Source: Mesostigma viride (Eukaryota; Streptophyta; Mesostigmatophyceae; Mesostigmatales; Mesostigmataceae). From it: 64,000 bases of DNA. The stretch spans positions 5,494,146-5,558,145 of the forward strand of contig RPFO01000154.1 in the NCBI GenBank assembly GCA_009746045.1. Reading direction: 5' to 3'. Of this stretch, positions 17,201-64,000 are shown in pieces. Positions within the stretch are counted from its first letter, which is position 1, and every line of letters begins with the position of its first letter. Position numbers and translations under genes: made by a program. Below the pieces are notes generated by a model. The model saw only the letters and a list, made by a program, of their open reading frames with translations. It ran no database searches and was not told the origin of the DNA.

Positions 17201-20200
17201 CGCCCCCCCACCCACCCAGATTGTCCACGTGGTCCATGAGGTGCACATGGCGCGCCAGGCCGCGCAGTGCCTGTCGCTGCCCCAGCCACTGGTGGCCCTC
17301 CGCAAGCTGCTGGCCACACAGGACACCAAGGTCAACCGGCTGCTGCGTGTGCTGCGTGATGCGGCCACGACGCCCCTGGAGCGCTCGGTGATTGGGGCCC
17401 TGGCCACCCTGGCGGTCCACCAGGGGGACGTGCTCCGCCGGCTCATGGTCCGCAAGCCGGGCATGGGCGAGTTTGACGTGGTGGCGGCCGACGAGTTTGA
17501 GTGGATGAGCCTGTTACAATACAAGCTGGAGGGGGGGAAGCTCACACTGCAGACCATGGGCGCCAGTTTTAGCTATGGGTGAGGCCATGTGCACCGGTGT
17601 TAGCTAAAGTTAGACCACGGGCGCCAGTGTTAGCTACAAGTCAGACCACGGGGGCGAGTGTTAGCTACAAGTTACACCACCGGCGCCAATGATAGCTGCA
17701 AATTTGACCACGGGGGCCAGCTTTAGCTACAAGTTAGATCACAGGCGCCAGCTTTAGCTGTGGGTAGTTGGCCGGCATGCCCCACTTGGCTTTGGGGTGT
17801 CCAAATAGTGAGCATATAACTCTGCTCATAACATCAATCTCAGCAGAAGCGGCATCTACAGGCAACAGCAAGCATGGTACACCATTTTTGGGCGCGTTTC
17901 TGTACCACCTGACTAACCACCTCCCTTCTGGCCCCCTCCTCAACTCCCCCCACCTGCCACACACATCACCACCACCCCAACCTCTCCCCTCACCAACCCC
18001 AACTTCTCCCCTCCACCCCCACCCCCAACCCTTCCTACCCACCCCAACTTCTCTCCGCCGCCCCCCCCCCCCCAACCTTTCCCCCCCCACGCACACCAGG
18101 TACGAGTACCTGGGCAACAGCAACCGGGTCGTCATCACCCCCCTGACCGAGCGCTGCTTTCACACGCTGCTCATGGCGATGCAGCTGCAGCGTGCAGGGT
18201 CCCCTGAAGGGATTTCGGGGACGGGCAAGACGGAGACCGTGCGCGCACTGGCCAAGGCACTTGCTCGCTTCTGCCTGGTAGGTGTTTTATGCTGGCAGCT
18301 GCTCCCCTCTCAGCCTGGTACAGGGTTGATGCTGGCAGACATCCCCATTCTGCCTGGTACGATGTTTTTGCCGGCAGACACTCCCCATTCTGCCTGGAAG
18401 ACATTTCTGCGTGCCACCACTTCCTCCTGCATAGTTGATTTATTCTGCTGGCAGCAGCTCGCCTCCTGCCCGCTAAGAAAGCTTGCAGCTGTCCCGCTGC
18501 TGCGAGTGTGTTGGGCTGGCAGCTGTCACCTGCGTGCCTGGCCTGTCCCGCGCTGCTTCCACGGGGCTGTGGGACAACGTCGTGATGCATCCGTTTCTAT
18601 GATTGTACCCCGGTCTGATCGGTACCCCAGGCCCCATTCAAAAGATTTTCTGACCCTGCATCCAGTAACTGCAGTCCTCGGCCCACCAGCCCACCCTCAC
18701 CGTTGCTGCATCCCCCCTGGACCGTAACCTGCTGGCATGCACTTTGGGCTCGTGTCTGTCCATTGTGTACTCAGTGCCATTCCTCGTGGACGTACAGCCA
18801 TTCACTACAGTGACCATGTAGACCAAAATAATGAGCACGCAGACCATCTGCTAGTCGGCATGGACTGCCTGCCAGTCATGGTAGACTGACTGCCGTCTGT
18901 TGCGGCCCGCCTGTCCTGGTCCACTACCCGCCTGCCTGGTGCACTGCCCGCCTGTCCTGGTGTAATGCCCGCCTGCCTTGGTGTACTGCGCTGGTGCACT
19001 ACTTGTCCCTGCTACTCCCCGCAGGTGCTCAACTGCAGCGAGGGTCTTGACGTGCCGGCGATGGCACGCTTCCTCAAGGGTGTGATCTCGGGCGGTGTTT
19101 GGGCCTGCTTCTCGCTCTTCAACCGCATCGAGCTTGAGGTGCTGTCCGTCGTGGGCCACATGGTGGCCACCGTATTTACGGCCAAGGCCTCTCGCGTGCC
19201 CAAGTTTGAGTTCGAGGGGCAGAGTGTGCCGCTCAAGCCCGAGTGCGCCATCCATGTGTACGTGGTGGGGCTAGACAAAAGGGAGCAGGCAAACCTATCT
19301 GTAACCAGTTGTTCCAAGGAACATATAGGGCGTGCCGCTTAAGCCCGAGCGCGCCATCCATGCGTACGTGGTTGGAGTAGACGAGGGAGTAGGCCCTCGT
19401 CTACTATCTGTAACCAGTTGTTCCAAGGAACGTATAGGGCGTGCCGCTCAAGCCTGAGTGCACCAGCCATGCGTACGTGGTGGGGCTGGGCTAGGGAATG
19501 AGAGAGCCTATTTATTGAAATGTAATTAGGAGGCCTCAGTGCCACGCTAGCTGAACTGCGCCATCCATGGGTATGTAAACAGGTAGATAGCGGGATAGGC
19601 AATATCAAAGGAATAGGAACTGTAAAAGGGATAGGCAATATCAAAGGAATAGGAACTGTAAAAGGGATAGGCAATATCAAAGGAATAGGAACTGTAAAAG
19701 GGATAGGCAATATCAAAGGAATAGGAACTGTAAAAGGGATAGGAAATATAAAAGGGACAGGCAGCATGAAAGGGATAAACAAGCCTGTGTCGTATCGTCC
19801 ATCAGGCCTCAACCTCAATCGCACAAGGTGCCTGTGCATGGCTGTTACTGTCCGTGACCGTGAGGATACCGCTGCTCACCCCATCTAATGCGCTCACTGG
19901 ATTGCCACTCCTCTTCCCTCCCACCTGTTCCTGCCTTTTCAAAGACATTGCATGCCTCGTTCCCCGCCTCCTGAACTTCGTGGTATCCCCCTGCTTTTGC
20001 TCCCTCTTCCCCCCCCCCCCCTCTCCCCCCCTTAAATAAGAATCTCTGCCTTCCTCTCATTTCCTTCAAGGGTCTTTCGCTCTTTTTACCGCCCCCAACC
20101 TCCCACCACCCCTCCAGCACCATGAACTTTGGCCTCACCGACCGCAAGGAGCTCCCCGACAACGTGCGCGTGCTGCTGCGCCCCGTGGCCATGCTGCACC

Positions 20201-64000: not shown

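Follow-up and report, generated by a model that had tools for sequence, protein, structure and literature searches.

Why do so many introns of one gene carry copies of the exon edges that adjoin them? The gene lies in a 64-kb window (the whole stretch of DNA analysed), and a sequence-only reading of this stretch had described tandem repeats whose unit spans the exon–intron border. It regarded these as too often centred on splice sites to be ordinary minisatellites, and proposed either a recurrent process that lengthens introns or a supply of decoy splice sites under selection. We asked how much of this pattern is real, and how much would be expected of tandem duplication that takes no account of splice sites.

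A dynein gene with copied exon edges

On the plus strand of the window lies a gene for an axonemal dynein heavy chain of the inner-arm type, which extends past both window ends; its best solved relatives are inner-arm dyneins from Chlamydomonas and animals. Gene style and composition suggest that it probably comes from a green alga. Exons were placed by protein alignment, open frames and GT–AG signals. Twenty-six were located (E1 and E3–E27), with a tentative acceptor for E13, and E2 was not placed with confidence; the exon numbers of the earlier reading fit this model. Exons E3–E27 give a coding sequence of 7,266 nt (2,422 codons) with no stop codons and consistent phases, and the splice dinucleotides of the model are GT at 26 donors and AG at the acceptors.

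No near-identical protein was present among the 120 matches listed of 2,966 matching proteins. In the AAA1 region, identity to these 120 did not exceed 52%, and the best matches among them were a mix of algae, fungi and animals. The AAA1 Walker B pair, encoded in E6 (19025–19257), is SL (WACFSLFNR), where DE is found in 119 of the 120 listed homologues and the remaining one is without such a motif; the sensor region of E6 likewise deviates (TMNFGLTDR). Going by these motifs, the dynein motor may be unable to hydrolyse ATP at AAA1, or selection on the gene may have relaxed, although the reading frame is open. E10 (23705–25366) carries long low-complexity insertions in AAA2 compared with other dyneins.

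Introns have a median length of 782 nt. The E10–E11 intron reaches 19 kb and contains 17.1 kb of a 27-nt satellite (25998–43106; 95% matches), the unit of which had no exact matches in viral contigs. A further 13.9 kb of a 25-nt satellite (1–13898; 99% matches) lies directly upstream of E1 and, because E1 has an acceptor, seems to be intronic, in an intron continuing beyond the window. A 43-nt array of 4.1 copies (15770–15944) lies in the region of the unplaced E2.

To catalogue the copies, each exon edge, with 100–120 bases on either side, was searched by BLAST against its own flanking intron (E ≤ 0.05), and a second scan by local alignment used the exon edge plus 10 intron bases as the query. 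By these two methods, intronic exon-edge copies were found at all 16 junctions that the sequence-only reading had named, namely the 3′ edges of E4, E5, E6, E15, E19, E22, E23, E26 and E27 and the 5′ edges of E8, E16, E19, E21, E23, E25 and E26 (Table 1). Beyond that list, copies were detected at E8 3′ (14 exon nt, E = 0.009), at E16 3′ (5 exon nt) and, weakly, at E17 3′ (E = 0.007). Matches at E5 5′ and E24 3′ were only 11–12 nt long and were treated as chance.

Table 1. Positions in the window of the dynein exons and of the copies at their edges
Feature	Position	Strand	Repeat	Exon part	Splice site or remark
Dynein heavy chain exons E3–E27	16492..63363	+			Open frame, 2,422 codons
E4 3′ array	17551..17765	+	31-nt unit	28 nt	Donor at 17579
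E5 3′ array	18269..18465	+	TRF period 40 nt	9–10 nt	Donor at 18278
E6 3′ array	19226..19576	+	Unit ~106–109 nt	32 nt	Donor at 19258
E8 5′ copy	21638..21771	+	Copy at 21638–21673	31 nt	Real acceptor before 21741
E8 3′ short array	21876..21931	+		14 nt	Absent from the earlier list
E15 3′ young array	48870..49211	+	142-nt unit	21 nt	Donor at 48891
E16 5′ young array	51261..51997	+	87-nt unit, 8 upstream copies	29 nt	Acceptor in each copy; real acceptor before 51969
E16 3′ array	52221..52316	+		5 nt	Donor at 52226
E19 5′ copies	54746..54979	+	Copies at 54746–54878	30–35 nt	Real acceptor before 54945
E19 3′ array	55068..55428	+	Three copies	≤33 nt	Donor at 55101
E21 5′ copy	57015..57157	+		8 nt, with 45 intron nt	Acceptor before 57150
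E22 3′ copies	58067..58335	+		16–24 nt	Donor at 58091
E23 5′ copies	58432..58913	+		16–18 nt	Acceptor before 58896
E23 3′ array	59042..59462	+	Lags 145, 276, 365	≤49 nt	Donor at 59091
E25 5′ copy	61443..61660	+	Copy at 61443–61479	29 nt	Acceptor before 61632
E26 5′ copies	62411..62694	+		11 nt	Acceptor before 62684
E26 3′ copy	62806..62954	+		40 nt	Donor at 62846; copy without splice dinucleotide
E27 3′ copy	63318..63468	+	Copy at 63417–63468	46 nt	Donor at 63364

A repeat unit that runs from the end of an exon through the splice site into the intron is clearest at E4, E6, E15 and E16 5′; the copies at E21 5′ and E16 3′ include only 5–8 exon nt. Copies do hold an exon part, as had been described, but it measured 5–49 nt rather than 15–60 bases (9–10 at E5 3′, 8 at E21 5′ and 11 at E26 5′). 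Similarly, units proposed to run from 31 to about 145 bp do start at 31, but lags reach 231 nt. The proposed decay with distance was seen, copies decaying away from the exon, except that the E15 and E16 5′ arrays decay little and the decay of the E19 3′ copies does not follow their order. Inside the 142-nt unit at E15 3′ (48870–49177), the exon edge recurs as a weaker half-repeat (48924–48981 and 49066–49120), which suggests a nested earlier duplication.

A stricter test aligned only the 60 exon bases of each edge with its own intron, using a Smith–Waterman-type score with a threshold of SW ≥ 32; the E1 and E3 edges that face the unplaced E2 were kept among the 52 edges. Thirteen of the 52 were positive: E4 3′, E6 3′, E8 5′, E15 3′, E16 5′, E19 5′, E19 3′, E22 3′, E23 5′, E23 3′, E25 5′, E26 3′ and E27 3′. 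None of 172 exon-interior windows and none of 52 wrong-side flanks reached the threshold, and neither did any of 1,200 pairings of exon edges with non-adjacent flanks, where the maximum score was 29. The exon-edge copies are far beyond chance, and the feature is real. Introner-like elements are marked by similar sequence in many unrelated introns; the 1,200 non-adjacent pairings gave no sign of this for exon edges.

Repeat density and a neutral simulation

Pseudo-junctions placed inside introns were also positive, at 235 of 1,486 positions (15.8%, or 13.6% as the mean of per-intron rates; these windows overlap and are non-independent).

We then profiled density as the share of 30-base windows that have a nearby copy (threshold 32), by distance from the junction. 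Inside exons, this was 0 of 906 windows at 60 bases or more, 0.5% at 40–59, 10.5% at 20–39 and 24.6% in the last 20. On the intron side, three successive 20-base bins starting at the junction gave 15.5, 13.5 and 15.0%, followed by 20–28% at 61–350 nt and 12.1% beyond 350 nt, the last being half that of the exon edge. The profile is a plateau that spills about 40 bases into exons, with no peak at the junction; repeats had been thought to be centred on splice sites, but the junction is no denser in them than intron sequence 61–350 nt away. TRF arrays cover about 20% of the 23,134 nt of non-satellite intron, and exon interiors were without tandem duplication, save for one short TRF call inside E7 (20237–20287).

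The placement of arrays was tested with 32 of the 35 TRF arrays (dinucleotide runs were dropped) and, as in the density profile, E2's two junctions and the E1–E3 intron were omitted. Where 2.23 of the 32 arrays would be expected to span a junction with at least 5 exon bases, seven did, about a threefold excess (P = 0.0045); a minimum of 9 exon nt gave 6 against 1.96 (P = 0.0097), and a minimum of 15 gave 4 against 1.56 (P = 0.06). This speaks against placement by pure chance, but the test ignores the longer recognisability of frozen exon copies.

We therefore compared the gene with a simulation that does include such freezing, in which random tandem duplication acts over the real exons, with exons frozen and introns evolving. 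Five sets of parameters were chosen, not estimated, and runs were selected on matched intron repeat density (a pseudo-junction fraction of 0.12–0.20), which kept 64, 50, 63, 57 and 47 runs of 80 per set. Simulated positive edges, of 50, had means of 5.7, 7.4, 9.5, 5.6 and 3.7, compared with 13 in the real gene, and the runs with at least 13 positive edges were, in the same order of sets, 0, 6, 12.7, 1.8 and 0%. Most, perhaps all, of the edge count is explained by neutral duplication, and an excess of 1.4–3.5 fold over the simulation (tail 0–0.13) may remain.

The decay of the copies was compared in the same way. Because selection preserves the exon copy, it should diverge from an intronic copy at half the rate at which two intronic copies diverge from each other. 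In 7 of 7 arrays with at least two old copies, exon–copy identity was indeed greater than copy–copy identity (means 0.80 and 0.72), which fits independent decay from a frozen exon. Many old arrays have a well preserved exon part and a poorly preserved intron part. Among positive edges with an intron part of at least 40 bases (E4 was omitted, its intron part being too short), 8 of 12 had no more than 22 homologous intron bases, against 41–47% in simulation; at exon identities of 0.72–0.96, such short intron homology (≤22 nt) was seen at 6 of 8 edges, against 46–57%. The better-kept exon part was considered as a sign of function and set aside, as the simulation produces much the same. E27 3′ and E23 5′ have near-perfect exon copies with intron homology of 2 and 5 nt, making two of four such cases, compared with 9–14% in simulation. 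These data come from one gene in one genome, in which same-array copies and overlapping windows are non-independent.

Copied splice sites as potential decoys

Splice sites were scored with a matrix made from the gene's own sites, the real sites being scored leave-one-out, which favours copies; a donor copy and an acceptor copy that lack the dinucleotide were excluded. Copied acceptors had a mean score of 8.6, compared with 7.1 for real acceptors, and 14 of 16 scored no lower than the real site, although 8 of the 16 belong to the young E16 array. Copied donors had a mean of 4.3, compared with 7.1 for real donors, and 9 of 24 equalled or exceeded the real site. Random intron GT and AG scored on average −1.9 and −2.4. 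As copied acceptors mostly score as high as real ones, splicing must choose among near-identical sites. A stop codon would be introduced by 37 of 42 copies if they were used. Use as in-frame extra exons was considered and rejected, with only 3 of 42 copies in frame and open (E5 18433, E19 3′ 55313 and E26 3′ 62947) and their sites weak or lost.

Three tests of whether old copies retain the splice dinucleotide disagree on selection. When aligned through the junction, 29 of 31 old copies kept it where 21.6 would be expected (P = 0.001); such an alignment is free to slide onto a GT, and same-array copies are non-independent. When the anchor was junction-blind, the count was 19 of 25, against 19.0 expected (3 were not judgeable), although positions 0 and +1 were kept at 0.95 and 0.91 of 22, above their neighbours. 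Counted per array against four flanking bases, retention was better in 8, worse in 1 and tied in 2 (P = 0.039); the flanks are unmatched, and some of their bases are intronic and change in the original as well as in the copy. Of the two suggestions made from the sequence, recurrent duplication that lengthens introns is supported by our data, and the splice scores make the copies potential decoy sites; for selection on such decoys, the retention tests point in different directions.

Explanations and known systems

We consider the junction copies to be a tolerated overflow of general intron tandem duplication that is not aimed at splice sites, and give this a probability of about 0.7. Short tandem duplications (units of ~20–230 nt), created by slippage or break repair, would arise repeatedly and roughly at random along the gene. 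Those wholly within an exon would be purged by selection, and intronic ones would persist and decay. Duplications of segments that start a few dozen bases inside an exon would also be tolerated, because the coding sequence is still bordered by an intact exon edge and splice site, with the additional copies landing in the intron. Selection would freeze the exon copy while the intronic copies mutate; with the exon frozen, pieces of exon plus splice site would be recognisable for longer than purely intronic repeats, so that repeats come to look anchored on splice sites. To judge by the reading frame, not by RNA, the exon-proximal site (the most upstream donor, the most downstream acceptor) would be the one used. 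In favour of overflow are the flat-to-falling density profile with its zero in exon cores, the positive pseudo-junctions, the share of intron sequence in TRF arrays, the simulated edge counts and intron homologies, the exon–copy identities and the lack of exon-edge matches to non-adjacent introns. Counting against overflow are the 13 positive edges, above every simulation mean, the placement P value of 0.0045, the halving of density beyond 350 nt, the E27 3′ and E23 5′ copies, and dinucleotides that are maybe better kept than their flanks.

Part of this would be expected if a mutational process targeted splice junctions, for example duplication in the repair of breaks or R-loops at exon–intron borders, so that introns grew from their ends, and we regard this as unlikely, though the least so of the alternatives. 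The excess of junction-spanning arrays and of positive edges over simulation would fit, as would a published survey of 31 species, which reports for every one of them, Chlamydomonas and Volvox above all, a higher density of tandem repeats close to intron–exon junctions (PMC3887541); the density profile has no junction peak, however, units and lags differ among the junction arrays, and with units of ~100 nt the excess falls to a tail of 0.13. It is similarly unlikely that, in this lineage, duplication biased to exon–intron borders keeps extending introns at their ends and that the spliceosome dependably takes the exon-proximal one of several near-identical tandem splice sites.

The E27 3′ and E23 5′ copies, with their near-perfect exon parts and 2–5 nt of intron homology, rare among comparable simulated cases, are what would be produced if exon edges were pasted into introns without the adjoining intron (by staggered-break repair, as filler DNA) and were not decayed tandem units. 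We think this improbable, given the long intron homology at E4, E6, E15, E16 5′ and E19 5′ and the fit of most other edges to decay. Slightly more doubtful still is that selection retains the copies because they act as decoys or as alternative sites for splicing: the through-junction and per-array retention counts and the good splice scores argue for it, and are offset by the sliding of the alignment, the non-independence of copies in an array, the two-sided evolution of the flanks, the junction-blind result at its expectation, the stop codons that most copies would introduce and the independent decay of the copies.

If the neutral overflow reading holds, frozen exons are enough by themselves to make exon-anchored repeats seem enriched at splice sites, and the simulation offers a null model for testing such claims of enrichment. 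Under any of these explanations, the gene serves as a natural experiment in how splice sites are chosen.

The literature was searched for such arrays, where absence is weak evidence of absence from print; the passages of Haematococcus papers that were examined make no mention of junction-spanning repeats. Human CBS has a 31-bp VNTR, c.1444_1467+7(16_21), in which a minisatellite unit spanning an exon 3′ end and intron start is tolerated, with 24 exon and 7 intron bases by its coordinates (PMC2630376). The E4 3′ array has the same arrangement and is also of 31 nt. The CBS VNTR is a single polymorphic locus of 16–21 copies, whereas here many junctions of one gene are involved, mostly with 1–8 extra copies, and are known from one assembly. 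The same source describes CBS 844_845ins68, a duplicated intron 7/exon 8 junction where one of the sites is strongly preferred in splicing and the resulting mRNA is normal (PMC2630376). The dynein 5′-end cases resemble it, although it is a single 68-bp duplication studied on RNA and the dynein copies are known from DNA alone. In potato RdRp, a tandem duplication across the intron 1/exon 2 boundary is reported to have made a new intron (PMC4974935), whereas the dynein copies sit in existing introns. Dense intron repeats, more of them near junctions, are shared with Chlamydomonas reinhardtii and Volvox carteri, in survey passages that are silent on copied exons or splice sites (PMC3887541). The Drosophila Y dynein genes kl-3 and kl-5 are reported to have giant introns filled with satellite, which makes satellite-filled dynein heavy chain introns a further likeness; that case is of megabase scale and has no bearing on junctions, and the satellites here cover 17 kb and at least 13.9 kb (PMC6508621). 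Set beside these systems, what is unusual is the number of affected junctions within one gene.
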